Assembly (NCBI RefSeq): GCF_035593345.1 | Contig: NZ_CP141606.1 | Location: forward strand, 3,968,001 to 4,032,000 | Source: Lelliottia sp. JS-SCA-14 | GTDB lineage: Bacteria; Pseudomonadota; Gammaproteobacteria; Enterobacterales; Enterobacteriaceae | Direction of reading: 5' to 3' | DNA length: 64,000 nucleotides | Shown here: piece by piece, positions 45,240 through 63,203 of the stretch | How positions within the stretch are numbered: position 1 is the stretch's first letter | Layout of the letters: each line of letters begins with the position of its first letter | Made by a program: the position numbers and the translations under genes | The notes under the pieces: generated by a model | Told to the model about the DNA's origin: nothing | What the model saw: only the letters and a program-made list of their open reading frames with translations | The model's database searches: none

Positions 45240-46430
45240 ATGGAATTTCGTAATCTGACGCCGTTTTCAGTAATGGAATACGCCATGGATGACCAACATA
45301 ATGAGCGCCATCGTGTCGTTGTCATGAAAACCGGCTTCAAACTTAAGCAGGACGAGAGTGGACAATGGCAGCCACAACTGATGGAAAGTCCTCCATTACC
45401 TTTGTGCGTGGAGGATGAGTTCGTCGGGGAAATGAATAACTCCCCTGTGCTTCGTGAAAGCGACCTTGCCCCCTTTAAACCCGCCTGTGACATCATCATC
45501 AACGGAACCGCTTACACACCGGGCGGCGGCACAATACCAGAAATGACAGTGGGCGTGCTGATGCGTTCACCCACGGATGAAGTCATTCTGGACAAAAAAT
45601 TACGGGTGATGGGTAAACGTTTTTACCAGCGTCAGGCACTCACGGGCCAGTGGAGTGAAACAGAACCCGAGCCGTTCACCTCCCTGCCACTGGATTACCG
45701 CCATGCCTTTGGCGGCGAATGTCGCGTGGTGGCTGACAGTAAGTATGCCAGCCGAATCCCTGAACAATACCGCCTTACCGAGGCCCAGCTCCGCGAACAT
45801 CCTGACCAGGATCACCCGCCACTGGCGCACATCGCCTGCGAAGTGAATCCGCTGGGGCTGGGTTATACGCAGCCGTGGTACCTGAAAGCCTGTGACATTC
45901 ACCAGGTTGAAGCGCCGCGAATTATCGCCACTGACAGCCCGTTCACTCTTGCTCATTTTTTTGCCTGCCTGGGCGGAAAAGCCGACTGGTCTGCGCCTCA
46001 ATTTCAGCCTGCGGGTTTTGGCTGTATCAGCCGAACCTGGTTGCCGCGTCTGCCGCTGGCTGGCACTTATGACCGGGAATGGCTGGAAAACCGCCATCCC
46101 AACCTGCCTGATGATTTCAATTTTAGTTACTGGAACAGCGCACCGGGCAATCAGCAAATTCCCTTTCCTGAACCCAGTTCAACAATCACCCTTCAGGGGC
46201 TGCATCCTGATGGGGACATCACCTTCACGCTGCCCGCAAACCAGGCCGTTATTTTGCTGCGGACGAATACGGGGGCGTTAGCACCCCAGAAAATGTGGGT
46301 CGACACATTAGTCATTGATACCGATGCTCTCACGGTAGCGCTGACATGGCGTTATTTGCTGCCAGCCAATTCGCCAGTACGGGCAATGGAAGCACGCTAC
46401 AGCATGGAAGGAGAATCAATATGGCGCTGA
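45240..46430 (+). CDS. DUF2169 type VI effector adaptor
   Basis: A 396-residue DUF2169 protein; this family is reported as chaperone or adaptor for loading PAAR-domain effectors on VgrG. It starts MEFRNLTPFSVMEYAMDDQH and has PLPLCVEDEFVGEMNNS near residue 50, LDYRHAFGGECRVVADS near residue 155, EVNPLGLGYTQPWY near residue 210, PAGFGCISRTWLPRLPLAG, and the C-terminal WRYLLP. It lies ten bases after the vgrG remnant, and its stop overlaps the start of the rhs gene, so adaptor and effector are coupled. It appears intact. Confidence 0.85.
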   Translation: MEFRNLTPFSVMEYAMDDQHNERHRVVVMKTGFKLKQDESGQWQPQLMESPPLPLCVEDEFVGEMNNSPVLRESDLAPFKPACDIIINGTAYTPGGGTIPEMTVGVLMRSPTDEVILDKKLRVMGKRFYQRQALTGQWSETEPEPFTSLPLDYRHAFGGECRVVADSKYASRIPEQYRLTEAQLREHPDQDHPPLAHIACEVNPLGLGYTQPWYLKACDIHQVEAPRIIATDSPFTLAHFFACLGGKADWSAPQFQPAGFGCISRTWLPRLPLAGTYDREWLENRHPNLPDDFNFSYWNSAPGNQQIPFPEPSSTITLQGLHPDGDITFTLPANQAVILLRTNTGALAPQKMWVDTLVIDTDALTVALTWRYLLPANSPVRAMEARYSMEGESIWR

Positions 46431-49400
46431 ATTATATCGCACGTCAGGATGCGTCGTGGACGGTAGTCAGCACCACGCCGGACGTCTGTAAAACCCCGAT
46501 GGGGCCAGCGACCCCGCCTGTCCCCTATCCGGTTACTGCCGATATGGTGAGTTCAGTGCTGACGGTACCTGACGTGCTGGCTAACGACTGCCCGGTACTG
46601 GTGCTGAATCAGAGCTTTATTCCCAAAACCAAAGGTGATGAACCGGGTGTCGCTAAGGGCATTAAAAGCGGCACCGTGGGTGATATCTGTGAGCCATTGG
46701 AATCTAGCACCACAGTGCATGTCGGAGGAAAACCGGTTCTGCGGCACCTCGATAAGTTCTGGATGAATGCCCGCAATACCACGGGCATTATTTTGGGTCA
46801 GCCTCCTGCCGCCAGCGTGCCAGCCAGTCAGGCCGATCCGGTTGTGGTGCCCGAAACAGCAGAAGAACAAAGCTACACAGACGGCCTGAAAAATCTCTAT
46901 AAAAAACAAGCGGAGTCACAGCCTGACGACGAGCAGGCAAGGGAAGCCTTTAAGGATTTTACGACTGACCATACGCCAGACGGGGTGATGAACAGCCAGC
47001 AAATCGGTGCAATGCTCTATGCGTCCGGTTACTACAACACGACTCCGGAAGCTGCACGGAACGCGGCAGAACAGATTGGGGGGGAGGCTCTCGAGACCTA
47101 TAATGCAGCGGATACCCCTCAAAACAGGGCATTGATGACTGTAGCACAAAGTCTGGTCATGGGCTTTGCGCTAAGAACAGCCGGTAGTGCAACAATGGAC
47201 GGCGCCAATATCAGTGGGAAAATCAAAGTACTGGAAGGCGAAGGAGAAGGTGTTTTCAGCGGCATGTGCACCAAACCCGGTGACCCCGTCGATGCCGGAA
47301 CCGGTGATTTTCTCCAGCATTTCAGCGTCCTTTCCCTGCCCGGTTCACTTCCCCTGTCACTTTCCCGCTTTTATCGCTCAAAGGCAAAAGGCAGCGGTAT
47401 TTTCGGTCCTAAATGGACCGATGAGTGGTCATGCTCACTGACCCTGCACGGTGATAATCTGCACTTCACCGACGCCGAAGGCGTGGTGCTCTATTATCCC
47501 ATTCCGCAGGACGGTATTTTCCGTGATGCAGTGAATGGCCGCCAGGCCCATTACCGACTTTCCGGCAGTCTGCACGACGGGCTGTCACTCTTCGACCGCC
47601 GTTCGCAGCTGACGCAACAGTTTACGCTGACGCAAAATAGCGCCTGTCGGCTCTCCGCCCTGCACGACCGTCACGGCAACCGGGCTGATTTCCTTTACAC
47701 CGACGATTTGCTGACGGCCATCCACCACAGCGACGGCTATAGGCTCGAACTTGACTGGCAACAATCCCGGTTAATGAACATCGACCTCGCAACCCCGCAG
47801 CGCCAGCGCATGGTCACCTGCCAGTACGACGAGCAGGGTTTTCTCGCCGAATGTGAGACCTTCCAGTTTACCCATCTGTGGCATGAGTACTCGCCTGAAG
47901 GCTTTATGACGCGCTGGCGAGACACCGATAAAACCTGTGTCGATATTGGCTATGACGCACAGGGCCGGGCCATCAGCACGCTGTCAACGGAAGGCTACTA
48001 CGATGACCGTTTCGTCTATGACGACGAAGAGCGCTGCACCACTTACCTTGATGCCGAAGGCGGCGAAACCCGCTACTGGTATAACGACGACGGACTCGTC
48101 ACCCGCAGCATCGACCCGCTGGGGCGCGAAGAGCACTCCGTCTGGGACAACACCCAACTTCAGTCCCGCACCGACGCGCTCGGGCGCATCACAAAATATG
48201 ATTACAACCGTGAAGGCGGCATCCGTCAGGTCGCCCTCCCGGGCGGATACAGTCTGTATTACGACTACAACGAAAACGGACAGCTGACCCGCCTGAGAGC
48301 CCCGGGCGACCAGGTGTGGCGGTGGGACTACGACGACAACGGCAGCGTGGTCACTCTCACCGACCCGCAGGGCCGCAAGCAGCAGTTCAGCCACAGCGCA
48401 CAGGGCGACCTGCTGACCCATATGCTGCCCAATGGTGCCACCTGGGTATGGCATCATGATGCCCTGCATCAGGTTCAGGAAACCGTAGCCCCTGATGGCG
48501 GTGTCACTCACACCGAAACCGATTTTCTCGGCCGCCTGCTAAGCGTGAAAGACCCGCTGGGTTTCACCACACAGTTCCGTCACAGTAAAACCCACGCGGG
48601 GCCACAGGGCAGCGTTGAGGAAATCAACCGCCCCGACGGCGTACGCGAGCTGATGCGCCAGAACAGCGAGAAACTGCCGGAGAGCTTCACCGATGGTGAA
48701 GGGAAAATCACCCGATATGAATACGGTGCCTTTGACCTGCTGGCCGCCGTCATCCGCCCGGACGGCGAACGGCTGACATGTCGCTACGACAGGCTCACCC
48801 GTTTAACAGAAATCACCAGTGCAGCAGGCGAGCGCTACAGGCTGGAATACGACAAGGCCGGGCAGCAGACTGCCGAAACCGACTTCACCGGGCGCACGCT
48901 GCGCTATGAATATGATGCCGCTGGCCGCTGTATTCGCACCACTTTCCCTGATGGCACGCATCTCAACCGCCGCTATAACGTGACCGACCAGGTGACGGAT
49001 GAGGAAGTCACGCAGGGCGACAGTGACCGCATCCTCAGCACCACCACCTTCCGCTATGACCCCCTGTGCCGTCTGGTGGAGGCTAAAAATGACGATGCCA
49101 CCGTCACGTATGAGTATGACGACGCCAGCCACCTCATCGCCGAAACCCTGAACGGCAGGCGCACGGAGTACGGCTACGATGAACAACGTGATTTCGTCAC
49201 ACAGCGTACGACCGGCAGCATCACCGAGCGCTTCACCCGTGGTCTGATGGGTGAGCTGAAGGCATGGCAGCTCAACGACCACGCGCAGCTTACCTTTGAA
49301 TATGACCTGCGCGGTCAGGAAACCGTCCGCCGCAGCGACGCCGGGTTCTGTCAGCAACAGGGTTACACGCCCACCGGCATGCTGACGCAGCAGAAAGCCG

Positions 49401-50767
49401 GAGACCACCGCGCCGGACCGCACGAGCGCAATAAAAGTCTGGCGCGGGAATGGCTGTACGACAAAGCGTTCAACATGACGATGATAACGGACTCCCTGCG
49501 CGGTACGGCCTTCAACACCCTGACAGCCAACGACCAGATAAGCCACGCCACCTGGACCGGCAACCGTCACATTCCGATGCGTGAGGAGCGCTTCACATAC
49601 GACAAAAACCTCAACATCACCCGCCGACAGACCTGGGTCAATGAGGTTCTGGAGAGTGAAACCCATCTGCAGCAACGGCATGGCCGGGTGACATCCAGCG
49701 AACACCGGGGCTGGCGTCACTCGACATCCCGCATCAATCCGGATACCGGCAAACCAGAAGAAGGACACTTCGTCCGGGTGGTCAACGCTCACAACATCAC
49801 CTGGAAATACGATGTTAACGGCCGTCTGGTGGAGAAGCTGGTTGATAAAGGCGGCTACCGCCCCCAGCAGTGGCGCTATCGCTGGGACGCCCGGAGCCAG
49901 CTCACGGGCCTCGAAACCCCGGACGGTGAACGCTGGGAATACCGGTACGACCCGTATGGCCGGCGCATCAGCAAACGCTGCACCAGCCACGCTAAACCAG
50001 GGATGGATTTTCACTGGAGCGGCGACCAGCTGACGGAAGAAATCCCGGTCGGTACTAACAGTCAGCCAGACCACGACAACGCCATTCGCTGGATATATGA
50101 GCCCGGTAGTTTCACTCCGTTTGCGCGCCATGAAAAGGGACAGCTGCACTATGCCGTCACGGATATCACCGGGCGTATCCAGGAGCTTCTGACCGAAGAC
50201 GGGACCATTGTCTGGCAAGGCAGACAGCAGCTATGGGGGCGGGAGGAAGGCAGAAATCAGGACAATGCTCCCGCCTGCCGCCTGCGTTTTCCGGGGCAGT
50301 ACGAGGACGAAGAATCAGGGTTGTACTACAACCGTTTCCGGTACTATGATGCGGAGACGGCGCAGTATCTGAGTCCGGACCCGATCGGGCTTTCGGGTGG
50401 AGTGAATCCATACGGGTATGTCAAAAATCCGTTGGGGTGGATAGATCCACTGGGACTAGTTTGTTGTAAGGAGTCATTTGAGCAAGCCATGAATAAAGCG
50501 TTACAATGGCTAGAGGCTAAAGATTTTAAAGCAGAGAGAGTTAATACTGGTAAATTTGGGGCCACTAAAGGAAAAGCTGTAGGGATGACAACTGCAGATG
50601 GAAAAACAGGTTTTAGGGTTGAATATGACGAGAGAAGTGGTGCACATATCAATGTGTTCAGTGGCAAAGAAAAAGGGGAACACTATCAATTTGATGCAAC
50701 TGAACCGACAACGACAAAACATCAAGACCGGTATGATCACCCCACAAAGCCGAGGAGAGGTGAATGA
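46421..50767 (+). CDS. PAAR-like Rhs effector with C-terminal toxin
   Basis: A 1,448-residue Rhs polymorphic toxin from the ATG at 46421, with an aaggagaatc ribosome-binding site. Residues about 10-135 form a DUF4150 PAAR-like tip (CKTPMGPATPPVPYPVTADM). The Rhs cage starts near residue 300 (GDPVDAGTGDFLQHFSVLSL) and continues with many YD-type repeats such as YDYNREGG and YEYDDASHLI. The core ends at DPIGLSGGVNPYGYVKNPLG and IDPLGL. The last 100 residues, from VCCKESFEQA, are AT-rich in coding sequence and form the variable toxin. It contains GFRVEYDERSGAHINVFSGK and may be a nuclease of the small RNase-like class, which is not proven. The stop overlaps the immunity gene (ATGA). Confidence 0.88.
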   Translation: MALNYIARQDASWTVVSTTPDVCKTPMGPATPPVPYPVTADMVSSVLTVPDVLANDCPVLVLNQSFIPKTKGDEPGVAKGIKSGTVGDICEPLESSTTVHVGGKPVLRHLDKFWMNARNTTGIILGQPPAASVPASQADPVVVPETAEEQSYTDGLKNLYKKQAESQPDDEQAREAFKDFTTDHTPDGVMNSQQIGAMLYASGYYNTTPEAARNAAEQIGGEALETYNAADTPQNRALMTVAQSLVMGFALRTAGSATMDGANISGKIKVLEGEGEGVFSGMCTKPGDPVDAGTGDFLQHFSVLSLPGSLPLSLSRFYRSKAKGSGIFGPKWTDEWSCSLTLHGDNLHFTDAEGVVLYYPIPQDGIFRDAVNGRQAHYRLSGSLHDGLSLFDRRSQLTQQFTLTQNSACRLSALHDRHGNRADFLYTDDLLTAIHHSDGYRLELDWQQSRLMNIDLATPQRQRMVTCQYDEQGFLAECETFQFTHLWHEYSPEGFMTRWRDTDKTCVDIGYDAQGRAISTLSTEGYYDDRFVYDDEERCTTYLDAEGGETRYWYNDDGLVTRSIDPLGREEHSVWDNTQLQSRTDALGRITKYDYNREGGIRQVALPGGYSLYYDYNENGQLTRLRAPGDQVWRWDYDDNGSVVTLTDPQGRKQQFSHSAQGDLLTHMLPNGATWVWHHDALHQVQETVAPDGGVTHTETDFLGRLLSVKDPLGFTTQFRHSKTHAGPQGSVEEINRPDGVRELMRQNSEKLPESFTDGEGKITRYEYGAFDLLAAVIRPDGERLTCRYDRLTRLTEITSAAGERYRLEYDKAGQQTAETDFTGRTLRYEYDAAGRCIRTTFPDGTHLNRRYNVTDQVTDEEVTQGDSDRILSTTTFRYDPLCRLVEAKNDDATVTYEYDDASHLIAETLNGRRTEYGYDEQRDFVTQRTTGSITERFTRGLMGELKAWQLNDHAQLTFEYDLRGQETVRRSDAGFCQQQGYTPTGMLTQQKAGDHRAGPHERNKSLAREWLYDKAFNMTMITDSLRGTAFNTLTANDQISHATWTGNRHIPMREERFTYDKNLNITRRQTWVNEVLESETHLQQRHGRVTSSEHRGWRHSTSRINPDTGKPEEGHFVRVVNAHNITWKYDVNGRLVEKLVDKGGYRPQQWRYRWDARSQLTGLETPDGERWEYRYDPYGRRISKRCTSHAKPGMDFHWSGDQLTEEIPVGTNSQPDHDNAIRWIYEPGSFTPFARHEKGQLHYAVTDITGRIQELLTEDGTIVWQGRQQLWGREEGRNQDNAPACRLRFPGQYEDEESGLYYNRFRYYDAETAQYLSPDPIGLSGGVNPYGYVKNPLGWIDPLGLVCCKESFEQAMNKALQWLEAKDFKAERVNTGKFGATKGKAVGMTTADGKTGFRVEYDERSGAHINVFSGKEKGEHYQFDATEPTTTKHQDRYDHPTKPRRGE

Positions 50768-51195
50768 CTTTAAATGATGAAATTAGATTGCAAATTACAA
50801 AACTCCCGGATGCTCCAGAAATAATTGATAACTGGGAACCTATTGCTGATTCACTATCCGGAATGTTCAACTGGGTGGGTTCAAAAATCGATTGGAAAAA
50901 AACGACTAAACATATGCATCAAGAACTTGGGGAGGATAAAAAATGTTGGCCTTCCTTAGTTAAAAAATTCTCCTGTAAATATCTGAGGGATTTCATTTAT
51001 AACTCAAAAAAAATCCATTACATCAATGATTCATCATTGGATTTTGCTCTGGCAATATCAGCCGATAAAATTGATACAATGTTTGATTTATTAATAGAGC
51101 ATGTCCCTCAACATCATTACTTTTTTAATCTTGATACTAAATGGTGTTTTGTAATTAGCTCAGAAGGTTATTTGGATTTTGGATTTTCCAATTAG
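50764..51195 (+). CDS. Probable Rhs immunity protein
   Basis: A 143-residue, AT-rich gene whose start overlaps the rhs stop codon by four bases. I do not recognise a domain. The product is soluble and rich in aromatic and charged residues (KCWPSLVKKFSCKYLRDFIY, PQHHYFFNLDTKWCFVIS). The immunity role follows from position: Rhs toxin tips are followed by a cognate inhibitor that is usually as AT-rich and as variable as the toxin. Confidence 0.7.
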   Translation: MTLNDEIRLQITKLPDAPEIIDNWEPIADSLSGMFNWVGSKIDWKKTTKHMHQELGEDKKCWPSLVKKFSCKYLRDFIYNSKKIHYINDSSLDFALAISADKIDTMFDLLIEHVPQHHYFFNLDTKWCFVISSEGYLDFGFSN

Positions 51196-52751: not shown

Positions 52752-53483
52752 ATGAGCCTACCGCAAACCACCCTTGCCGAATCCGTCACGCAGCATATTG
52801 CCTGTCGTATTCTTCACGGCGACCTCCATCCGGGGCGCTCGTTGCCCGGCGAAAATGAACTGGCGGGCGAATACGGGGTTTCGCGAACATCTGTGCGTAA
52901 TGCGCTGCAGTTCCTGGCCGCCAAGGGGCTCATCACGATTCAGCCCAAAAAACGCACCACGGTGAATAACCGTGAGATGTGGAACCTGCTCGATGCCGAT
53001 GTTCTGAACTGGCTGGCGGAAGGGGAAGTTGGGCCAGAGCTGGTCGAGCAGCTGATGGTGGCGCGACTCATTTTTGAACCTGACGTAGCGACCCTCGCCG
53101 CGCTGAACGCTACGGGCCACGATCTTGCCGCTCTGGAAGATGCGCTGAGCCTGATGCGCCGCGGGCAAACCGAAGCGGAACGGGCATTATTTGAAGAAGG
53201 CGATCTCGCTTTCCATCAGGCGCTGCTTCGCGCGACCCACAACCCTTTCCTCCTCGCACTCGGTAATGCACTCTCTGCGGCGATGGTGCTGTCATTCCGC
53301 CAGACGCTGGAAAAAGACGTTCGTGATTCCCACGCCGCCGTTGACGATCATTTTTTGTTGTTTGAAAACATTCGCTTAAAACAACCAGACGGCGCTCGTC
53401 AGCAGATGCGCACCATTCTGATCAACGCCGCCAGAAAGCATCTCTGGAAAGATCTGCCGGAACTCTTCAACTTCATCTCCTGA
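52752..53483 (+). CDS. FadR/DgoR-type GntR family regulator
   Basis: A 243-residue transcription factor with an N-terminal winged helix-turn-helix (residues about 10-75: SLPGENELAGEYGVSRTSVR, NALQFLAAKGLITIQPKKRT) and a C-terminal FCD ligand domain. The domain carries metal-binding-type residues in EGDLAFHQALLRATHNPFL and AAVDDHFLLFENI. It is similar in build to DgoR, the galactonate-responsive repressor, but clearly diverged. It is the first gene of the sugar-acid cluster, with a repeated operator-like motif between it and the kinase gene. The effector is probably an aldonate or a 2-keto-3-deoxy acid. Confidence 0.88.
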   Translation: MSLPQTTLAESVTQHIACRILHGDLHPGRSLPGENELAGEYGVSRTSVRNALQFLAAKGLITIQPKKRTTVNNREMWNLLDADVLNWLAEGEVGPELVEQLMVARLIFEPDVATLAALNATGHDLAALEDALSLMRRGQTEAERALFEEGDLAFHQALLRATHNPFLLALGNALSAAMVLSFRQTLEKDVRDSHAAVDDHFLLFENIRLKQPDGARQQMRTILINAARKHLWKDLPELFNFIS

Positions 53484-53543
53484 TCATTCCTTAAAATAAT
53501 TTCGATCTTCCTCACAGATCGTGGGGATTTTTTGCTCTAGCAT

Positions 53544-53578
53544 TCTTGTATTACAAGATTGCATAGGTTGTATTACCT
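53544..53578 (+). promoter_or_regulatory. Two TTGTATTAC boxes, candidate operators of the GntR regulator
   Basis: The near-palindrome tcttgtattacaaga (53544-53558) and aggttgtattacct (53565-53578) each contain ttgtattac, 22 bases apart, ending three bases before the kinase start codon. FCD-type GntR regulators bind short palindromes of the form TTGTA-TACAA. Binding here would block expression of the downstream genes. Confidence 0.65.
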
Positions 53579-53581
53579 GAT

Positions 53582-54481
53582 ATGAGCAGATACTGGATTG
53601 CCATCGACTGGGGCACCACCAACTTCCGCGCGTTCCTGATGAACCAGGCGCAGCGGATAGATCAGATTAACCACCCTTGCGGGTTGTTATCGGTGGAAAA
53701 CGCGCAGTTTGGCCCCACGCTTTACGCCATGCTCCAGCCGTGGCTTGAGCAATATGGAAAATTACCTGTCGTGATGGCAGGCATGGTGGGATCGCAGCAG
53801 GGCTGGCATGAAGTTCCGTATGCGCCGCAACCCTGCGGAGCCCGCGATCTGCTCGCACGCACTCACGCCTTCACCACATCCTGGGGCAGTCCGGCGTGGA
53901 TCATTCCCGGCGTCAGCGGCACCAGCCATTTCGGTCAGCCGGACGTGATGCGCGGCGAAGAAGTGCAGCTTCTCGGTCTGTGCCAGTTACACCCCGCGAC
54001 TCACCATTTTGCCCTGCTGCCCGGCACGCACAGCAAACATGCTCAGCTCGTTGAGGGAAAAATATCTGTCTTCTCAACGTTTATGACCGGCGAGATCTTC
54101 TCCCTTATGAGCCAGCGCTCTCTCCTCGGCAAAGATTTGCCAGAGCAGCAGGAAGACAACGCCGCATACCTGCTCGGTGTTCAAACTGCCCTTCGCGGCG
54201 CGCCCTTCACGCATCTTATTTTCTCTGCCCGCACGCGCCGTCTGGCAGGGGAAATCGCGACATCGCATGTCCACAGCTATCTCTCCGGTCTGACGATTGG
54301 TCACGAACTGCTGGCGATACCGGCCGGACAGCAGGCATGGGTTGTCGGCAGCCCTGCGCTCACCGCGCGTTATCAGCTGGCCGCCTCACTGATGGATCTG
54401 CAACTCACGCCGGTCAACGGTGACGACTGCTTTATCCGTGGCCTGAGCCACCTCTTCTCCCTGATTCAAGGAATCGCATAA
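53582..54481 (+). CDS. dgoK: 2-dehydro-3-deoxygalactonokinase
   Basis: Phosphorylates 2-keto-3-deoxygalactonate at C6. The 299-residue product (E. coli DgoK 292) has the sugar-kinase-like start YWIAIDWGTTNFRAFLMN, MAGMVGSQQGWHEVPY near residue 65, VMRGEEVQLLGL near residue 122, LLPGTHSKHAQLVEGKI near residue 145 and FMTGEIFSLM. No strong ribosome-binding site is visible, and the candidate operator ends just before the ATG. The stop overlaps the dgoA start by one base. Confidence 0.92.
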   Translation: MSRYWIAIDWGTTNFRAFLMNQAQRIDQINHPCGLLSVENAQFGPTLYAMLQPWLEQYGKLPVVMAGMVGSQQGWHEVPYAPQPCGARDLLARTHAFTTSWGSPAWIIPGVSGTSHFGQPDVMRGEEVQLLGLCQLHPATHHFALLPGTHSKHAQLVEGKISVFSTFMTGEIFSLMSQRSLLGKDLPEQQEDNAAYLLGVQTALRGAPFTHLIFSARTRRLAGEIATSHVHSYLSGLTIGHELLAIPAGQQAWVVGSPALTARYQLAASLMDLQLTPVNGDDCFIRGLSHLFSLIQGIA

Positions 54482-55128
54482 TGGATCCGAAGACGTTTTC
54501 GACCCGCTGGAAACAGGAGCCGCTGCCGCTGGTCGCCATCCTGCGCGGTATCACACCGGCACAGGCCTGCGAGGCAGCAGACATTTTACTGAGCTGCGGT
54601 TTTCACTGGCTGGAAGTCCCGCTGAATAGCCCTGAGCCGCTTGAATCTATCCGGCTGATGCGCAAAACCGTCGGCAGTGAGGGTTTTGTCGGCGCGGGTA
54701 CGGTCCTCACCGTTGAGCAGGTCGATCAGGTTGCCGACTGCGGTGGTCAGCTGATCATCTCGCCAAATTGCGATCCCGAGGTCATTCGCCACTCGGTGAA
54801 ACGCGGGTTGATCAGCATGCCGGGCGTGATGACACCGAGCGAGGCGTTTAGCGCTATCGCCAGCGGCGCCAGTGCGCTAAAACTGTTCCCCGCGGAACAC
54901 GTCACCCCAGCGATCACCAAAGCCTTCCGCGCCGTGGTGCCTCATGACGTGGCCTGTCTGCCGGTGGGCGGTATTCAGCCGGATGCCGCACAGATGCGCA
55001 GCTATATCCAGGCTGGCGCGAACGGTTTTGGTCTCGGCGGCGGGCTGTATCAGGCCGGTATGAGTATGAATTTACTGCGTGAGCGCGCCCAGGCTTATCA
55101 GAAAGCCTGGCGTGAGTGCGCGGAGTAA
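54481..55128 (+). CDS. dgoA: 2-dehydro-3-deoxy-6-phosphogalactonate aldolase
   Basis: Class I aldolase that cleaves KDPGal to pyruvate and glyceraldehyde 3-phosphate. The 215-residue product of the KDPG aldolase family shows LPLVAILRGITPAQACEAAD near residue 15, EVPLNSPEPLESI, GAGTVLTVEQVDQV, IISPNCDPEVI and the Schiff-base lysine in ASALKLFPAEH near residue 127. It is coupled to dgoK by a TAATG overlap. In E. coli this enzyme is fused or paired with DgoD; here the dehydratase gene is of a different family. Confidence 0.93.
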   Translation: MDPKTFSTRWKQEPLPLVAILRGITPAQACEAADILLSCGFHWLEVPLNSPEPLESIRLMRKTVGSEGFVGAGTVLTVEQVDQVADCGGQLIISPNCDPEVIRHSVKRGLISMPGVMTPSEAFSAIASGASALKLFPAEHVTPAITKAFRAVVPHDVACLPVGGIQPDAAQMRSYIQAGANGFGLGGGLYQAGMSMNLLRERAQAYQKAWRECAE

Positions 55129-55133
55129 TCCCC

Positions 55134-56003
55134 ATGAAACGCGTCGTCACCGGTCCTCTCAAAACCATCGGCCATTATCGCGCGCAGCTTGGTGAAACTC
55201 CGGTCTGGTGCGCCCGCAGCCAGTCGCTGCTGTGGGTGGATATCCTTGCTCAGCGTCTGCTGCGCTACTGGCCGGGAGAGAATGCAAGAACCCAGATCCA
55301 CGCCATGCCGCCTTTTACCAGCGCGGTGCTGCTGACGACGCAGGAAGAGACATTTTTGACCGTCAGCCAGAGCGGAATCGCGTTGTACGACTACGCCCAG
55401 TCGCGCTTCGCCCCACTCTGCGATTACCCGGCTGACGCCATAGGTACGCGCCCAAACGAAGCCGCCATTGCCCCGGACGGGGCGCTGTGGTTCAGCACCA
55501 TGGACCCAAAGGCCGAAAAGGCCATCGGCAGCTGGTATCGCTTTGCTTCTGGCGATAACGCCCCGCAGCGTCTGCTCGGCGACCAGCTGGTGCCGAACAC
55601 CCTGCAGTGGCATGGCGACAAAATCTGGTTCGCCGACTCCCTGCTGCACCGTTTTTACTGCGCGCAGATGTCCCGGTCAGAAATTTTGGAACTGATGGCA
55701 CACAGCGTGGACGGCATTCCGGACGGGTCTGCGCTTACCGCAACGGGTCAGCTGATCAACGCCCGCTGGGGACAGTCGCGCCTGGTGCGGTATCAACTCT
55801 GTGAGACGAACCTTGAGGAGCTGGACAGCCTGGCGCTCCCCGTCATGCAGCCGAGCAGCTGTACCTTCGGCGGTCCGGACCTTAATGAGCTGTACATCAC
55901 CTCAGCCCGCGACGGGCTTGAGCGACCGAATGAAACGGAGGGTGCGCTGTTAAGCATCTCCACCACGTTAACCGGGCTGCCAGCCGGTCTTTTTCAGCTT
56001 TAA
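55134..56003 (+). CDS. SMP-30/gluconolactonase family lactonase
   Basis: A 289-residue six-bladed beta-propeller lactonase from the ATG at 55134; a GTG at 55116 would add six residues. The metal ligands are visible in GETPVWCARSQSLLWVDI (Glu near residue 15), PNEAAIAPDGALWFSTM (Asn and Asp near residues 103-112), PNTLQWHGDKIWFADS and VDGIPDGSAL (Asp near residue 195). These enzymes open aldono-lactones formed by sugar dehydrogenases. Next to dgoK-dgoA it would supply an aldonate such as galactonate. It follows dgoA by five bases. Confidence 0.88.
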   Translation: MKRVVTGPLKTIGHYRAQLGETPVWCARSQSLLWVDILAQRLLRYWPGENARTQIHAMPPFTSAVLLTTQEETFLTVSQSGIALYDYAQSRFAPLCDYPADAIGTRPNEAAIAPDGALWFSTMDPKAEKAIGSWYRFASGDNAPQRLLGDQLVPNTLQWHGDKIWFADSLLHRFYCAQMSRSEILELMAHSVDGIPDGSALTATGQLINARWGQSRLVRYQLCETNLEELDSLALPVMQPSSCTFGGPDLNELYITSARDGLERPNETEGALLSISTTLTGLPAGLFQL

Positions 56004-56030
56004 AAAAACGAAAACAATCAAGGTGTCATT

Positions 56031-57458
56031 ATGAACACAGCATTGAACCCTACAAAAACTAACCGGCAAACGCTGCTTGTTTGCTTTCTTGCCGCCCTCG
56101 CTGGCCTGCTGTTTGGCCTCGATATGGGGGTGATTGCCGGGGCTTTACCCTTTATTGCCAATGAATTTGGCCTCAGCAGCCATCACCAGGAAATTGTGGT
56201 CAGCGTGATGATGTTCGGTGCCGCACTCGGCGCCCTGTGCAGCGGGCCGATGTCCTCCAGCCTTGGCCGCCGTAAAAGCCTGCTGCTCGGTGCCATTCTC
56301 TTCGTGATCGGCTCCGTGGGCTGCGCCTTTGCAGACAGCATGGCGGTGCTCTCCGTGTTCCGCTTTGTGCTCGGTCTGGCGGTGGGCGTGGCGTCCTTTA
56401 CGGCTCCACTTTACCTGTCTGAAATCGCGCCGGAACGTATTCGCGGCAGCATGATTTCCCTCTATCAGCTGATGATCACCATCGGCATTCTCGCCGCCTT
56501 CCTGTCCGACACCGCCCTGAGCGCTGGCGGCCACTGGCGCTGGATGCTCGGGGTGATCACCTTCCCGGCCATCGTGCTGTTCCTCGGGGTGCTCACCCTG
56601 CCGGAAAGCCCGCGCTGGCTGGCGATGAAAGATCGCCACGCTCTGGCAGGTAAAGTGCTGAAGCTGCTGCGTAACTCCGATAAAGAAGCCCAGTACGAGC
56701 TGGATCAGATCCGTGAAAGCGTGAAGATGAAACAGCGCGGCTGGCAGCTGTTCCGCCACAACCCGCACTTCCGCCGCTCCACCTACATGGGCGTGCTGCT
56801 GCAGTTTATGCAGCAGTTCACCGGCATGACGGTGATCATGTACTACGCGCCAAAAATCTTCGAAATCGCCGGTTTCTCCACCACCCGCGAGCAGATGTGG
56901 GGCACGGTGATCGCCGGTCTGACTAACGTGCTGGCAACCTTTATCGCCATCGGTCTGGTCGACAGATGGGGACGTAAGCCGATCCTCAAGCTGGGCTTCG
57001 CCGGGATGGCGGTGTGCATGGGCATTCTCGGCTACATGTTCCACAGCGGCATCACCAATCCGACCGAGCAGTACACCGCCGTGATCGTGCTGCTGATCTT
57101 TATTACCGGTTTTGCGATGAGCGCGGGCCCGCTGATCTGGGTGCTGTGCTCGGAGATCCAGCCGCTGGCAGGACGCGATTTTGGCGTCACCTGCTCCACG
57201 ATGGCCAACTGGATCGCCAACATGATCATCGGCGCAACCTTCCTGACGCTGATCGACACCATCGGCAGCCCAAACACCTTCTGGCTGTACGGCGTGCTGA
57301 ACGTGGCGTGCATCGTGCTGACCATCCTGTTTGTGCCTGAAACCAAAAATATTTCGCTGGAAAACATCGAGCGCAACCTGATGAACGGCGAAGCGCTGCG
57401 CAATATCGGACAGACAAAACACCACGCCCCGGCTGGCCAGAGTATCACGGCCAAATAA
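56031..57458 (+). CDS. GalP-like sugar:proton symporter
   Basis: A 475-residue MFS sugar porter closely resembling Gal[21 protein letters not shown] near the start, [55 protein letters not shown] and the C-terminal PETKNISLENIERNL. Compared with galP at 8447-9844 the same motifs are kept with scattered substitutions, and the C terminus is about ten residues longer. Its place in the cluster suggests import of an unphosphorylated aldose (galactose, or a related sugar such as arabinose or fucose) for oxidation. A hairpin follows it. Confidence 0.9.
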   Translation: MNTALNPTKTNRQTLLVCFLAALAGLLFGLDMGVIAGALPFIANEFGLSSHHQEIVVSVMMFGAALGALCSGPMSSSLGRRKSLLLGAILFVIGSVGCAFADSMAVLSVFRFVLGLAVGVASFTAPLYLSEIAPERIRGSMISLYQLMITIGILAAFLSDTALSAGGHWRWMLGVITFPAIVLFLGVLTLPESPRWLAMKDRHALAGKVLKLLRNSDKEAQYELDQIRESVKMKQRGWQLFRHNPHFRRSTYMGVLLQFMQQFTGMTVIMYYAPKIFEIAGFSTTREQMWGTVIAGLTNVLATFIAIGLVDRWGRKPILKLGFAGMAVCMGILGYMFHSGITNPTEQYTAVIVLLIFITGFAMSAGPLIWVLCSEIQPLAGRDFGVTCSTMANWIANMIIGATFLTLIDTIGSPNTFWLYGVLNVACIVLTILFVPETKNISLENIERNLMNGEALRNIGQTKHHAPAGQSITAK

Positions 57459-57465
57459 AAACGCA

Positions 57466-57492
57466 GGCGGCCTGCCACGTCGCAAGGCCGCC
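57466..57492 (+). other. Intercistronic hairpin between the two MFS genes
   Basis: A perfect eight-base stem, ggcggcct/aggccgcc, with an eleven-base loop and no T run. It may be an mRNA stabiliser or processing site that sets different levels for the sugar and acid importers, rather than a full terminator. Confidence 0.5.
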
Positions 57493-57510
57493 GCATCCTG
57501 GAGAGTCGTC

Positions 57511-58899
57511 ATGAACAAGAGTCTTACAAAAGAGTCGTCAGGAAAGGCCGTCGAATCGCAGGTTTACGCGAAGATCACGCGCCGTCTGATCCCCTTTTTG
57601 ATCCTCTGCTATTTCTTCGCCTACCTGGATCGCGTCAACGTCGGGTTCGCCAAGCTGCATATGCAGGATGCGCTGAACTTCAGCGACACGGTCTACGGCC
57701 TGGGCGCGGGCATTTTCTTCATCGGCTACTTCCTGTTTGAGATGCCGAGCAACCTGCTCATGCAGCGCTTCGGGCCACGGTTCTGGATCGCCCGCATCAT
57801 GGCGACCTGGGCGGTGCTGTCGGCGGCGATGATTTTCATCACCACCCCCACGCAGTTTTACGTGGTGCGCTTTTTACTCGGCGTGGCGGAAGCGGGCTTT
57901 TTCCCTGGCATCGTGTTTTATCTCACCCTGTGGTTCCCGTCCTGGCGCTCCGCCCGCACCCTCGGGCTGTTTATTCTGGTGACGCCGCTCTCGACCATTA
58001 TCGGCAGCCCGCTTTCCGGCCTGATCCTCAAACTGTTCGAAGGCGTCGACGGGCTGCATAACTGGCAGTGGCTATTCCTGGTCGAAGCGATTCCATCATT
58101 CCTGCTGGCCTTCGTGGTGCTGCGCTATCTGGATAACGACGTGAAGTCCGCCAGATGGCTGACCGACGCGGAAAAACAGGTGGTGGTGGACGATCTGGCG
58201 AAAGATGCCGCCAACCGCGAACGCGCTAACCAGGGCAAGGTCGACAGCACCCTGAGAGGGATGCTCAGCAACGGCTACGTCTGGCTGCTGGCGCTGGTCT
58301 TTTTCAGCTTCAACATTGGCTATTACGGGATCAACTTCTGGCTGCCGTCGATCATCAAAAGCTCCGGCGTGAGCGATGATTTCCACATCGGCCTGCTCGC
58401 CGCCCTGCCGTACGTCTTCGGCGCGTGCTTTATGGTGTGGAACAGCCGTCACTCGGATCTGAAACAGGAGCGCCGCTGGCACATTGCCATTCCGGCGATG
58501 ATTGGCTGCGTCGGCCTTGCGCTCAGCGCGTATTGCAGCGGATCGACCTTCTGGATGATGGCGTGGATCTGCCTGGCGATGTCCGGCACCCTGGCGTTAA
58601 TCCCCACTTACATTAGCCTGCCCGGCGCGCTGCTTTCCGGCACCGCCGCAGCGGCAGGTATCGCCTTCGTCAACTCCGTGGGCAACCTCGCCGGTTTCTT
58701 CGGCCCGACGGTGCTGGGCTGGCTGAAAGATGCCACCGGGCGCACCGACACCGGTTTGTACATTCTTGCCGGATTCCTGTTGCTGTGCGCTCCGCTGATC
58801 CTGACGCTGCCCGCCCGTCTGGCAAACCCGAAAAAAGTGATCCCTGAACCCGAACAGAGCGATGTGCAGTCTGAATCTGCGCATCACATCAGTCGTTAA
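57511..58899 (+). CDS. MFS anion:cation symporter, DgoT/RhmT-like
   Basis: A 462-residue MFS transporter of the anion:cation symporter family. It has ITRRLIPFLILCYFFAYLDR near residue 24, the signature YLDRVNVGFAKL, FEMPSNLLMQRFGPRFWIAR near residue 75 and AEAGFFPGIVFYLTLWFP near residue 125. Twelve hydrophobic segments are visible. Close relatives carry galactonate, glucarate, rhamnonate or hydroxyphenylacetate, so an aldonate is the likely cargo here. Ribosome-binding sequence tggagag precedes the ATG. Confidence 0.88.
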   Translation: MNKSLTKESSGKAVESQVYAKITRRLIPFLILCYFFAYLDRVNVGFAKLHMQDALNFSDTVYGLGAGIFFIGYFLFEMPSNLLMQRFGPRFWIARIMATWAVLSAAMIFITTPTQFYVVRFLLGVAEAGFFPGIVFYLTLWFPSWRSARTLGLFILVTPLSTIIGSPLSGLILKLFEGVDGLHNWQWLFLVEAIPSFLLAFVVLRYLDNDVKSARWLTDAEKQVVVDDLAKDAANRERANQGKVDSTLRGMLSNGYVWLLALVFFSFNIGYYGINFWLPSIIKSSGVSDDFHIGLLAALPYVFGACFMVWNSRHSDLKQERRWHIAIPAMIGCVGLALSAYCSGSTFWMMAWICLAMSGTLALIPTYISLPGALLSGTAAAAGIAFVNSVGNLAGFFGPTVLGWLKDATGRTDTGLYILAGFLLLCAPLILTLPARLANPKKVIPEPEQSDVQSESAHHISR

Positions 58900-58919
58900 C
58901 GTAGAAAGAGATAAAGCAT

Positions 58920-60626
58920 ATGAGTGGATGTGGAGGATGTGCCAGCTGTGGCACGCATTTCAACCCAATCCTTGAAGGTGATGACGGCGCGCTGAAACGT
59001 GCGCTGTACAAATCGATGGGCCATACGGACGAACAACTGCGCCGCCCGGTGATTGCCGTGGTGAACAGCTATACCAATGCCACGGCGGGCCACGCCAATC
59101 TGAATGAACTGACGGCGAAAGTGCTGGAAGGCATTGAAGAGGCGGGCGGCGTCGGCATGGTGTTCGGCACCATCGCCCCGTGCGACGGCATCGCCGAGGG
59201 CCACCTCGGTATGCGCTATATTCTCGCCGCGCGCGAGGTGATTACCGCCTCCATCGAAGTGATGATGCGCGCCCACCGCTTCGATGGGATGGTGCTTCTC
59301 GGCTCGTGCGACAAAATTGTCCCGGCGATGCTGATGGCCGCCGCCCGACTCGATATCCCGGCCATTATGGTCAACGGCGGCCCGATGTACCCCGCGGAAT
59401 ACAAAGGCAAACACTGGGACGGCAACATCGTCACCGAAGCCATTGGCTGGAAAAAACGCGGTGAAATCAGCGAAGAAGAGTTCGCCCATATCGAGAACAT
59501 CGCCGAGCCTGGCCCAGGCTCCTGCACCATGTACGGCACGGCGAATACCATGTGTTGCATCGGCGAAGTGCTCGGCATGAGCCTGCCGGGCAGCAGCACG
59601 CTGCCTGCGGTGTCTCAGGAGCGCCGCGACTGCGCAACCGAGACGGGCCGCCAGGCGGTGAAACTGGTGCAGAACGGCGTCAACGCTCGCCAAATTATCA
59701 CCCCGGAATCGATCCGCAACGCGATGGTTTACCTGCTGGCGACCGGCGGTTCCACCAATGCCATTCTCCATCTGCAGGCGATCCATTACGAAGCCGAACT
59801 CGGCCATCTGCCGCTCTCCGCCTTCGACGAAATGAGCCACCACGTGCCGCTGGTCGCCTCGCTCTATCCGGCTTCGGAACACGACATGATCGACTTCTGG
59901 GAAGCGGGCGGCGTGCAGGCGGTGGAGAAAGAGATCAGCTCCCTGATGGATCTCAACGCCCTGACGGTGGCCGGGAAAACCAAAGGCGAACTGCTGGCGC
60001 AGGCCAAACGCAGCAGCCGTCCGGAGGTTGTCCACACCCTGGCGATCCCGGTACGTAACGAGGCGGGCGTGGCGGTGCTGCACGGCAACCTGTCGCCACT
60101 TGGCTGCGTGGTGAAACCGGCGGCGGTACCGGAAAACCTGATGGTGTTCCGCGGCCCGGCGGTGGTGTTCAACAGCGAACAGGAGTCCGTCGAAGCCATT
60201 ATGTCCGGGGAAATTCAACCTGGCAGCGTGCTGGTGCTGCGCTACGAAGGGCCGAAAGGCGGGCCAGGCATGCCGGAAATGTACAAGCCGATGAAATCCC
60301 TCGAAGGCATGGGGCTGTCGGACAGCTGCGCGCTGATCACCGACGGACGTTTCTCCGGCTCCAACCGCGGCCTGTTTGTCGGCCATATTTCACCGGAAGC
60401 GGTGGATGGCGGCGAGCTGGGCCTGGTGGAAAACGGCGACGAGATCTCGATTGATATCCCGACCCGCACCCTGACGCTGCACGTGGCAGAAGAGGTACTC
60501 GCCACCCGCCGCGAAAGCTGGAAGCCGGTCAACAAAGAGGTGCCGCGCGGCTTCCTGCGCCTCTATCGCCGCTGGGCGTTGCCTGCTGCGCAAGGCGCTG
60601 TGCTGGCAGACCGGGAGGACGACTGA
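58920..60626 (+). CDS. IlvD/Edd-family sugar-acid dehydratase
   Basis: A 568-residue Fe-S dehydratase of the IlvD/Edd family. It has [20 protein letters not shown] near residue 42, [13 protein letters not shown] near residue 82, the cluster cysteine in [14 protein letters not shown] near residue 127, the second in [16 protein letters not shown] near residue 197, and [20 protein letters not shown] near residue 445. The position of the IlvD PGH motif reads AGH, so it resembles the 4Fe-4S-type members. The N terminus is unusual: [16 protein letters not shown] holds four cysteines in ten residues. In this cluster it should convert an aldonate to the 2-keto-3-deoxy acid, taking the role of DgoD. 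Confidence 0.87.
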
Positions 60627-61528
60627 TGACTCACTACACCGCGCAGCACATTGCTGGCGTTAACCCAATTGTCGCCATGCCCTTCACCGCCCACGGTGAC
60701 GTGGATGAGAAAAGCATGGTCCGCCTGCTGGAGCACCTCGCCACCAGCGGCGCGCAGGGCACCACGCTGTTTGGCATCGCCAGCGAATTTCCTAAGCTCA
60801 ACGATCACGAACGGGACCGTCTGGCGCAGCTGTTTGTCTCCACGCTCGACGGGAGCCCGCTCTATCGGGCGATGTCGGTCACGGACCACAGCACGGAACA
60901 GGCGGTAAAACGCGCTCGTGACTACGCGAAACTCGGCGTCGATGCCCTGATGCTGCTCCCGCCGTTCTTCCTGAGCCCGAGCCCGCAGGCAATTCAGGAA
61001 CATATTTTTGCCGTCCTCGAAGCGGTAGATATTCCGGTGATGGTCCAGTACGCCCCGGGCGAAACCGGCCTGCCGATCACCCCTGAGCAGATGGCGGCGA
61101 TCGCGGCCCGCTATCCCCATGCGGTGTTTAAAATCGAGTGCAATCCGCCGGTCGACTACACCCGCGAGTTTCTGGCGAAAGCCCCGCAGGCCAGCGTGCT
61201 GAACGGTTATGCCGGGCTGTACATGCTGCAAATGCTGGCTGCAGGCGGCAAAGGCGTGATGCCGGGCTGCTCGTTCACGGAAGTCTATGTGCGTATCTAT
61301 CGCCACTGGCTGAACGACGAAATTCAGCAGGCCGAAGCGCTGCACCAGAGCCTGCAGCCGTACATCCAGCGCTGGATGAGCCACTGCGAATACATCATCC
61401 AGGTGGAAAAAACCATCCTCATGCGCCGGGGCATTATTGCCAGCGATTACTGTCGTCGTCCGGGATGGAAACTCACGCCGGAAGACGAGCAGCTCATTCA
61501 CCAGTTTATTCACCAATTCCAGCTATGA
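60626..61528 (+). CDS. DHDPS/NAL-family lyase, possible 2-keto-3-deoxy acid aldolase
   Basis: A 300-residue class I TIM-barrel lyase of the dihydrodipicolinate synthase/N-acetylneuraminate lyase family. It has VNPIVAMPFTAHGDVDEKSM near residue 12, GTTLFGIASEFPKLNDHER near residue 45 (the usual GTTGE is altered), MVQYAPGETGLPITPEQM with the Tyr near residue 138, and the Schiff-base lysine in AVFKIECNPP near residue 169. Members next to IlvD-type dehydratases (compare yjhG/yjhH in E. coli) cleave or dehydrate 2-keto-3-deoxy acids. The start overlaps the dehydratase stop by one base, so the two are coupled. Confidence 0.85.
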   Translation: MTHYTAQHIAGVNPIVAMPFTAHGDVDEKSMVRLLEHLATSGAQGTTLFGIASEFPKLNDHERDRLAQLFVSTLDGSPLYRAMSVTDHSTEQAVKRARDYAKLGVDALMLLPPFFLSPSPQAIQEHIFAVLEAVDIPVMVQYAPGETGLPITPEQMAAIAARYPHAVFKIECNPPVDYTREFLAKAPQASVLNGYAGLYMLQMLAAGGKGVMPGCSFTEVYVRIYRHWLNDEIQQAEALHQSLQPYIQRWMSHCEYIIQVEKTILMRRGIIASDYCRRPGWKLTPEDEQLIHQFIHQFQL

Positions 61529-61571
61529 TCATAGGGCTGCGGCCAGCCCGCAGCCTGCAATGAGGTTCAAC

Positions 61572-62354
61572 ATGACCACGAAAACAACACCCCGTATTGT
61601 CATTGTCACCGGCACCAGCCAGGGTATCGGCCAGGCCATTGCGCAGACCTTTTTAGATAACGGCGATATTGTTATTGGCTGCGCCTTCTCCGCTCTGGAA
61701 AAAGCACCCGCCGCGCAGCAAATGCTGAGCGACTATCCGGATCGCTATTTCTATTTTTCCGTGGATGTCACCTGCACGGAGGCTATCCAGCAGTTTGTCG
61801 ACAGCGCAGAAAAACTGTTCGGCAGAATCGATGTTGTGGTGTCGAATGCGGGGAAAAATGTCTTCAAAGGCATCGACTGCGAAGAGAGCGACTGGGAGCA
61901 TAACTTCAGTCTGAATTTGCGCTCGCACTGGTATCTGGCGAAATGCGCCCGCCCGGCGCTGCGCAAAAGCCAGGGGACGATCATTATCATCACCTCAAAC
62001 CATGCGTTTTCGACCATGCCGGGCTGCGCGCCGTATAACATCAGCAAACGCGCCCTGCTTTCCCTGGTGCAGAGCCTGACGATTGAATGGGGCCCGGAGA
62101 TCCGCACCGTCGGCATCGCCCCCGGCTTTATTGATACTCTCGGCAACCAGGCGTGGTTTGATTCCCACCCCGACGCGCAAATCGCCCGCGACCGCACCAT
62201 CAAAAAACACCCCGTTGGGCGCATCGGTCGCCCGGATGAAGTCGGCGAATTATGCCTGTTCCTCGCCAGCGATAAGGCGGGCTTTATTGCGGGGACCACT
62301 ATCGTGATGGACGGTGGCCGCAGCGCCATAATGCAGGATGAAGAAGATCTTTAA
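61572..62354 (+). CDS. Short-chain dehydrogenase/reductase, possible aldose dehydrogenase
   Basis: A 260-residue classical SDR from the ATG at 61572 with a tgaggttc ribosome-binding site. NAD(P) binding is shown by IVIVTGTSQGIGQAIAQTF near residue 11, followed by VVVSNAGKN near residue 90. The catalytic Ser is in IIIITSNHAFS, and Tyr and Lys are in APYNISKRALLSLV near residue 155. Glucose, galactose and fucose dehydrogenases belong to this family. As the last gene of the cluster it is the best candidate for the first oxidation step, sugar to lactone. Confidence 0.85.
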   Translation: MTTKTTPRIVIVTGTSQGIGQAIAQTFLDNGDIVIGCAFSALEKAPAAQQMLSDYPDRYFYFSVDVTCTEAIQQFVDSAEKLFGRIDVVVSNAGKNVFKGIDCEESDWEHNFSLNLRSHWYLAKCARPALRKSQGTIIIITSNHAFSTMPGCAPYNISKRALLSLVQSLTIEWGPEIRTVGIAPGFIDTLGNQAWFDSHPDAQIARDRTIKKHPVGRIGRPDEVGELCLFLASDKAGFIAGTTIVMDGGRSAIMQDEEDL

Positions 62355-62363
62355 GCTGTTCTG

Positions 62364-63203
62364 CTAACAGGCTGGCACGCCCTGTGCCAGCCATTGCGGC
62401 CAGATAGCGGCCCAGTCAGAGCCATGGCTCATCCCGCTTATCACGGCCGTGCGAATACAGTTTCCGCCAACCGCCTGTACAAAACGGCGGGCGACGTCCG
62501 GGGGAACGGTTTTGTCGGCCTCGCCGCTGAGATGAAGCTGCGGGATATGACGCAGCGCCTGAGCGCGATCGATGGCATTGATCGCACCGGGCATGGCGCT
62601 CACCTGATGCAGCGCATTCACATAAGCGACATCCAGATTCCCCGCCACCGTGCGTAGCGAGCGCACATCCGTTCGCCTTTCCGCCAGCAGCGCCGCGATA
62701 TTTCCGCCGCCCGAATATCCCGTTAAATCAAGCTGAACGCCTGGGTAGCGCGCCACAAACCGATCGAGCGCCTCGTTCATTGACTCCAGTACAACGGGTG
62801 AAAAACGATCCTCCGTCCACCAGCGAACGCTGCACTCAGCGGGCAACGGCGGCCCGGCAAACTGGCAGGGCCTGGCGAGATACAGCACGCTGGCTTGCGT
62901 ATCGGCAGCGGCCAGCGTCAGGCCGACCGGGTTATGGGGCGTTGGATCGTCCGAAGGCCGCGTGCGGCTTTGCCAGGCAAACCCATCCCCTTCGATGTAG
63001 ACGTGTAATGACCTGACCGGCGGGGTCATTCGACTCCAGCTGGCAATCAGAAAGTCATTCGTCTGCACATTCTCTCTGGTAAGACCTGCCTGTTGCGCAA
63101 TTTGGCTCGCCGTATTGCGCGGTTGTACTGCAGCACAGCCTGTAAATAAAAAAGATAAGCTAATCAATAAGACTGCGAAGAATATATTCTCTTTAACCCA
63201 CAT
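62364..63203 (-). CDS. Lipoprotein alpha/beta hydrolase
   Basis: A 279-residue predicted lipoprotein (signal MWVKENIFFAVLLISLSFLF, lipobox FTGC near residues 20-23) with an alpha/beta-hydrolase domain. The nucleophile elbow is LTGYSGGGNIAALL near residue 160, an Asp lies in LSGEADKTVPPDV near residue 232, and the catalytic His is in GMSHGSDWAAIW near residue 260. It is convergent with the SDR gene, ten bases apart, and has no clear link to the sugar cluster. The substrate is unknown, possibly an esterase acting on envelope or external lipids. Confidence 0.8.
   Translation of the reverse strand: MWVKENIFFAVLLISLSFLFTGCAAVQPRNTASQIAQQAGLTRENVQTNDFLIASWSRMTPPVRSLHVYIEGDGFAWQSRTRPSDDPTPHNPVGLTLAAADTQASVLYLARPCQFAGPPLPAECSVRWWTEDRFSPVVLESMNEALDRFVARYPGVQLDLTGYSGGGNIAALLAERRTDVRSLRTVAGNLDVAYVNALHQVSAMPGAINAIDRAQALRHIPQLHLSGEADKTVPPDVARRFVQAVGGNCIRTAVISGMSHGSDWAAIWPQWLAQGVPAC

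Follow-up and report, generated by a model that had tools for sequence, protein, structure and literature searches.

A predicted operon for sugars of D-galacto configuration in Lelliottia, with an acid-utilization core and a detachable sugar-oxidizing front end

Galactonate-type pathways of sugar-acid degradation are known. In the canonical dgoRKADT operon, a GntR regulator and an acid importer of the major facilitator superfamily (MFS) accompany DgoD, the 2-keto-3-deoxygalactonate (KDGal) kinase DgoK and the 2-keto-3-deoxy-6-phosphogalactonate (KDPGal) aldolase DgoA. The De Ley-Doudoroff pathway combines an aldose dehydrogenase, a lactonase and an aldonate dehydratase with DgoK and DgoA. A different set is found in the D-xylonate clusters yagEFG and yjhFGH of Escherichia coli and xynABC of Salmonella, where a transporter and an IlvD/Edd-family dehydratase occur with a DHDPS-family protein, and the arabinonate (KdaD-type) system uses the same two enzyme superfamilies. 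Here we describe nine genes of Lelliottia sp. JS-SCA-14 that share features with each of these systems. They occupy positions 52752–62354 on the plus strand of a 64,000 nt stretch of DNA (the window; C1:3968001–4032000, contig NZ_CP141606.1) of the 5.0 Mb genome. We read them, with belief and doubt about evenly balanced, as an operon under GntR repression that serves D-galacto-configured sugars and the corresponding acids, and in which a core for acid utilization is joined to a detachable front end. Gene families, gene order, a conserved palindrome, the joint presence and absence of two genes, and residue changes in two enzymes were established by computation; every substrate named below, and the direction of each reaction, is a prediction. 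The system is new as a combination, its galactonate-type pathway being known and one of its enzymes belonging to a DHDPS subfamily without an assigned reaction. The part of the literature that our searches covered held no description of the cluster or of this subfamily, and no reaction for the latter.

The first gene encodes a GntR/FadR-type (FCD) regulator (52752–53483) that is 35% identical to E. coli DgoR and is the probable repressor of the eight structural genes that follow. From the dgoK-like gene onward, adjacent genes overlap by 1 base or are separated by 5–52 bases, and the cluster is likely to be co-transcribed as one operon behind the GntR gene. As both gene content and gene order recur in relatives, the arrangement is not a product of chance. 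A preliminary description of the locus had named eight gene families here, all of which are intact open reading frames on the plus strand; the ninth gene (60626–61528), of the DHDPS/DapA family, it had left unnamed. The DgoK-like kinase (53582–54481; Pfam DGOK, 275 bits) and the DgoA-like aldolase (54481–55128; NF006600, 273 bits against a cut-off of 207) supply, at the level of family, the KDGal kinase and KDPGal aldolase of the De Ley-Doudoroff pathway.

The remaining structural genes fall into two sets. Assigned to the core, beside the kinase and aldolase, are an ACS-type (anion:cation symporter-like) MFS protein (57511–58899), an IlvD/Edd-family dehydratase (58920–60626) and a DHDPS/NAL-family enzyme of 300 amino acids, whose gene begins with a 1-base overlap of the end of the dehydratase gene. 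The ACS protein is a candidate sugar-acid importer; its best model is TIGR00893, 'D-galactonate transporter', on which it scores 318 bits, below the cut-off of 395. The front end would consist of an SMP-30/gluconolactonase-family candidate lactonase (55134–56003; SGL domain, 170.6 bits), an MFS sugar porter (56031–57458; TIGR00879, 445 bits against a cut-off of 238) and a short-chain dehydrogenase/reductase (SDR; 61572–62354, with a start codon picked by eye within an open reading frame that begins further upstream). In the proposed route, the porter would import a free aldose, the SDR would oxidize it at C1 to a lactone, and the SMP-30 protein would open the lactone. The porter had been called GalP-like. 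The sugar-porter assignment stands and the GalP label is loose: by model scores, the nearest specific names next to the broad TIGR00879 family are GlcP (337 bits) and XylE (272 bits), each of them below its cut-off.

The division into core and front end emerges from related loci. Fifty-six loci, picked by the DHDPS gene with two patterns (LFGIASEF among them), were collected in a scan of named genomes, and a gene was scored as present at 80% or more of its length. The dehydratase is the commonest neighbour of the DHDPS gene (49 of 56 loci), followed by GntR (46), DgoK and DgoA (43 each) and the ACS importer (37), with lower counts for the SDR (23), the sugar porter (19) and SMP-30 (15). Of the 37 loci with an ACS importer, 36 Enterobacterales-like and one from Silvimonas, 19 have a full-length porter together with a full-length SDR and 16 lack the pair; the porter alone is broken in the other two. 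The two genes lie ~4.1 kb apart, with core genes in between. SMP-30 is present in 14 of the 37, every time with a full-length porter, and again in a Pseudocolwellia locus (L088). The preliminary description had proposed a search for co-occurrence of its families; by these counts porter and SDR are tied, and the lactonase is tied to them less closely (14 of 19).

We mapped the state of the front end onto a tree of the core genes (rows L051–L085, L100 and the window; L099, with several broken genes, excluded). Seven changes are required, at least six of them forced by well-supported branches. When the states were shuffled the mean was 12.3 changes, and none of 500 shuffles gave as few as seven. 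For the same 19 rows, a tree of porter and SDR has 14 of 16 splits in common with the core tree, and a tree of DgoK, DgoA and GntR has 11 of 16. The 14 common splits are to be expected if the ancestor had the full operon and its front end was lost several times; we read the pattern as repeated joint loss from such an ancestor, on a tree that does not distinguish gain from loss. That porter and SDR are kept or missing as a pair, with an acid-only form where they are missing, supports the view of a front end for the free sugar attached to a core for acid utilization.

Regulation of the cluster as a unit is suggested by a palindrome, TCTTGTATTACAAGA (53544–53558), which begins 38 bases ahead of the start codon of the dgoK-like gene and is the probable operator of the operon. 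In 36 of the 37 ACS-importer loci, the conserved form CTTGTnnnACAAG is present in the 260 bases that precede the first structural gene. It occurs 37 times in their 755,271 bases, the extra site (in L078) being far outside the operon. The sole locus that lacks it, L074, has no GntR, DgoK or DgoA; L066 and L100, from which DgoK and DgoA are gone, retain the palindrome upstream of the importer. In the Lelliottia genome the operon copy is the only place that matches with at most two mismatches, no additional operator site being found at that threshold, and a reversed control pattern gave 8 + 4 matches. We infer that the GntR protein binds this palindrome and thereby represses the operon. In 35 of these 36 loci (all but L070), the 60 bases ahead of the palindrome contain TCACA, possibly a CRP half-site; the copy in the window coincides in part with a terminator-like hairpin. 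Neither a promoter scan (two found, 3.4 expected by chance) nor terminator-like sites (25 found against 10.0 expected, most of them intragenic and one between the GntR and dgoK-like genes) was used as evidence.

The dehydratase had been placed outside the DgoD family in the preliminary description, and its IlvD/Edd assignment bears this out; there is no DgoD gene within 52752–62354. It passes the IlvD equivalog model TIGR00110 (641 bits, cut-off 618) and falls below the cut-offs for L-arabinonate dehydratase (402 against 882 bits), Edd (265 against 708) and YjhG/YagF (240 against 808). The methionine that is diagnostic for IlvD (Met100 of the M. tuberculosis enzyme) aligns with Glu93, by a numbering offset that we reckoned ourselves. 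In 47 aligned dehydratases this column holds Glu 46 times and Ala once (Pseudocolwellia L088), and in Edd and YjhG it holds Gln. Cys88 is common to the dehydratase, Edd and YjhG and is replaced by Asp in E. coli IlvD; the stretch CTMYGTANT is nearest to Edd. The protein ends in LADREDD, without the C-terminal His that the consulted portion of one study (PMC11316719) reports to be invariant among sugar acid dehydratases. Lacking both the IlvD methionine and the C-terminal His, it fits neither described subfamily. The reading as a second amino-acid IlvD was dropped in view of the replaced methionine (47 of 47 sequences) and of another IlvD elsewhere in the genome. Residues and neighbours together suggest a sugar-acid substrate. 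One known IlvD/Edd enzyme takes D-fuconate, D-galactonate and L-arabinonate, according to the same portion of that study (PMC11316719).

The DHDPS-family protein likewise departs from described enzymes. The motifs QYAP and K[IV]E are present in 171 of 171 sequences (120 listed of 535 homologues, plus 51 loci) and extend to relatives in Streptomyces, Embleya and haloarchaea. By alignment, Gln141, Lys169 and Glu171 match active-site residues of KdaD-type enzymes, whose active-site Glu is described in the consulted portion of PMC9795676 as not conserved in other DHDPS/NAL enzymes. Glu199 and Glu200 of the KdaD-type enzyme align with Tyr195 and Ala196, and the C5 base, Glu200, is thus not kept. 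E. coli YagE and YjhH are 20–23% identical to the protein and carry LYNFP and IKD at the places of QYAP and K[IV]E. The column of the YNFP tyrosine of YagE-type aldolases holds, by alignment only, Gln141, with Tyr142 one residue later; Tyr142 was dropped as a candidate catalytic aldolase tyrosine for this reason. Identity with DapA was also rejected (TIGR00674, 95 bits against a cut-off of 206). In a profile search the top match was the uncharacterized protein 3dz1 (108 bits), the arabinonate (KdaD-type) enzyme scoring 105 bits and YagE 83, and a single-sequence search placed T. maritima DapA first (89 against 73 bits). Aldolase, dehydratase and epimerase activities are all candidates for the role of this protein.

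A KdaD-like enzyme would convert 2-keto-3-deoxy-L-arabinonate to ketoglutarate semialdehyde. This assignment would account for the retained Gln, Lys and Glu, for the higher profile score of the KdaD-type enzyme than of YagE, and for the name that one source's automatic annotation gives to some orthologues. We consider it unlikely: neither search places the KdaD-type enzyme first, Tyr195 and Ala196 stand in place of the two glutamates, and the cluster in the window has no gene for ketoglutarate-semialdehyde dehydrogenase. The arabinonate system differs also in its dehydratase, which here is without the C-terminal His.

That the protein interconverts C4 epimers of 2-keto-3-deoxy acids, by reversibly removing the C4 hydroxyl on a Schiff-base lysine, is a conjecture that we hold to be very unlikely. 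In a related form, which we rate as improbable, the protein would be obligatory between dehydratase and kinase, where dehydration and rehydration at C4 would yield the epimer that DgoK accepts. Gln141 and Glu171 of KdaD type, together with the Schiff-base Lys169 and without the C5 base, are consistent with such chemistry. Streptomyces and Embleya plasmids (L114, L115) carry relatives of the dehydratase and DHDPS protein beside a DgoA-like aldolase, and in Streptomyces a kinase that looks like PfkB (by eye, at its N-terminus) takes the place of DgoK, so that the order is dehydratase, DHDPS protein, kinase, KDPG-type aldolase. In addition, the four tested enterobacterial genomes in which DgoK is not intact at the locus itself (those of Shimwellia, Serratia quinivorans, Serratia AKBS12 and Hafnia GB001) all keep dgoRKAD elsewhere; but many enterobacteria are expected to have a canonical dgo operon, which makes its presence weak evidence. 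A DgoK-family gene is present in 12 of 16 searched entries (10 of 14 distinct genomes). The search found none for L101, L102, L103 and L106, which counts against an obligatory step before DgoK. The DHDPS gene also occurs without the dehydratase in six of 56 loci, and we know of no epimerase in the DHDPS family. The KdaD-like and epimerase proposals concern the DHDPS step only, and none of the alternatives weighed in this study excludes the others.

More distant relatives bear on the identity of the sugar. In seven Vibrionaceae loci (L087, L089, L090, L091, L094, L095 and L104), GntR, DgoK, DgoA, three TRAP-family genes and a DgoD-family gene stand together with the dehydratase and DHDPS genes; the DgoD family was tested in L089 (677 bits) and L104 (646 bits; cut-off 311) and the TRAP family in L104. 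Two Vibrio loci are without the dehydratase, one with a DgoD-family gene beside the DHDPS gene (L097) and one with GntR, DgoK, DgoA and DHDPS (L098). The Pseudocolwellia cluster unites an SDR (59% identical), SMP-30 (31%), DgoK, DgoA, dehydratase and DHDPS protein, with a PL8 lyase beside it. In a Bacillota metagenome-assembled genome (L101), a GH36 melibiase (Pfam-tested) adjoins a DHDPS relative and a DgoD-like gene; L102 has the same families, by clustering, and the DHDPS proteins of the two are 43–44% identical to that of Lelliottia (43% in L101). Bacillus sp. SD088 (L106) has a GH2 gene with a LacZ domain beside a truncated DHDPS gene and an SDR (46%). On a Halocatena marina plasmid (L113), a DHDPS relative (33%) adjoins an enolase-superfamily gene; an alpha-L-rhamnosidase and sulfatases are encoded close by, which suggests another sugar for this branch.

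The melibiase and GH2 neighbours favour galactose, and DgoK and DgoA suggest KDGal, the compound that dehydration of D-galactonate, or of its epimers at C2 and C3, would yield. The preliminary description had treated the sugar as an inference, and so it stays: galactose is the likeliest single sugar from gene content and neighbours, and is not established.

As the preliminary description had said, typical enterobacterial dgo operons use DgoD, and the same genome has such an operon. Next to yidA lie the consecutive genes dgoR, dgoK, dgoA, dgoD and a dgoT-like gene, 82–94% identical to their E. coli counterparts (93% for DgoD; the dgoT-like gene was compared over part of its length only). It also has galK. 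The second operon would consequently be a parallel route and not a replacement for dgo. Its DgoK is 36–37% and its DgoA 44–45% identical to the proteins of both E. coli and the canonical operon of its own genome, its importer is 22% identical to the canonical DgoT, and it has no DgoD. From yagEFG, yjhFGH and xynABC the cluster differs in having a GntR rather than an IclR-like regulator, in the distance of its DHDPS protein and in the low YjhG/YagF score of its dehydratase; those clusters, as shown, have no DgoK-type kinase, sugar porter or SDR.

The oxidative, De Ley-Doudoroff-like reading of the preliminary description survives in part. Its steps have candidates; galactose as the substrate is likely at most, the lactonase is variable, and the DHDPS gene lies outside the scheme. 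From the known De Ley-Doudoroff pathway the cluster differs in having an IlvD/Edd enzyme instead of DgoD, the extra DHDPS gene, importers for both sugar and acid, a detachable front end and a substrate that is only predicted. A strict De Ley-Doudoroff pathway would use D-galactose only, with the dehydratase converting D-galactonate to KDGal for DgoK and DgoA and the DHDPS protein as a spare KDGal aldolase. We think this rather unlikely. The kinase and aldolase assignments and the galactosidase-type neighbours agree with it, as does the annotation of YagE and YjhH as DHDPS-family aldolases adjoining D-xylonate dehydratases; the low identity to those two proteins and Gln141 in the tyrosine column speak against a spare aldolase, the genome already has dgo and galK, and DgoD beside this dehydratase in Vibrionaceae would be redundant.

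Several observations weigh against an operon for D-galacto-configured sugars with a detachable front end. With canonical dgo and galK present, the genome has no need of a further route for galactonate or galactose. Neighbours of galactosidase type were found in distant relatives, and the PL8 lyase and alpha-L-rhamnosidase point away from galactose. The constancy of the DHDPS gene is built into a collection made by that gene. Counted singly, porter, SDR and SMP-30 change nine, seven and nine times, and in L072 and L074 the SDR persists beside a broken porter. Independent pairs of porter and SDR agree in five cases, oppose in none and are undecided in two (p 0.0625), which taken alone falls short of 0.05. 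Finally, SMP-30 is absent from five of the 19 loci that retain porter and SDR.

This last count would be explained if the SDR interconverted a keto-sugar or keto-aldonate with the acid used by the core, the porter importing that compound and SMP-30 being incidental. SDRs within sugar-acid clusters are often ketoreductases, and gluconate 5-dehydrogenase is among the solved relatives of this SDR. The best of these by sequence bears the name glucose 1-dehydrogenase, and the catalytic tetrad (Asn115, Ser142, Tyr155 and Lys159) is intact and invariant across 26 aligned sequences. Since SMP-30 occurs only with a full-length porter (14 of 14 among the ACS loci) and again beside the SDR in Pseudocolwellia, we regard the keto-compound explanation as doubtful, and retain the SDR, which co-varies with the porter, as a candidate aldose 1-dehydrogenase.

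The system looks rare, given the few matches in searches of the class and phylum: among 369 genomes of the class the SDR had one match at 1e-70, the window's own, and among 299 genomes of the phylum the DHDPS profile had three at 1e-50, own included. Within the family, orthologues of the DHDPS protein are found in 19 of 198 genomes and of the SDR in nine, own included in both. The DHDPS protein is 99% identical to its counterpart in Lelliottia sp. V86_10 (L051). An E. coli origin was rejected, as only one of 5426 E. coli genomes has a near (megablast) match, a short form on a 184 kb plasmid (NZ_AP022088.1, 153947–175188; L050). There DgoK, DgoA, importer, dehydratase, DHDPS and GntR lie among transposase remnants, with an ordinary dgo operon ~2 kb away. 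Decay is evident in other relatives: the porter is broken in L072, several genes in L099, and the porter in L074, where GntR, DgoK and DgoA are missing; breakage or partial loss affects DgoK in L068 and the dehydratase and DHDPS genes in L105. A Salmonella Enteritidis hexonate cluster considered as a counterpart has a different gene set in the consulted portion of its description (PMC5428311). Shortly upstream of the Lelliottia operon, window positions 46346–51195 encode a 1473-amino-acid protein that resembles Rhs/YD-repeat proteins by eye, followed by a 143-amino-acid open reading frame that may encode its immunity protein. Downstream, a lipoprotein-like alpha/beta hydrolase of 279 amino acids (Pfam Hydrolase_4; 62364–63203, minus strand) is convergent with the SDR gene.

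If the reading of core and front end is correct, the operon offers a natural case in which the sugar-oxidizing half of an aldonate pathway acts as a separate module. Close strain pairs with and without the front end, such as Buttiauxella brennerae (L056) and its sister in the core tree, B. gaviniae (L059), would allow the aldose dehydrogenase and importer to be assigned by simple knock-outs. The DHDPS subfamily has an active site between those of known dehydratases and aldolases, and its relatives range from enterobacteria to haloarchaea. Should it prove to be an epimerase, acids of the wrong configuration could enter the DgoK-DgoA route, and the system would be a linear pathway of dehydratase, epimerase, kinase and aldolase with a detachable sugar-oxidizing front end.

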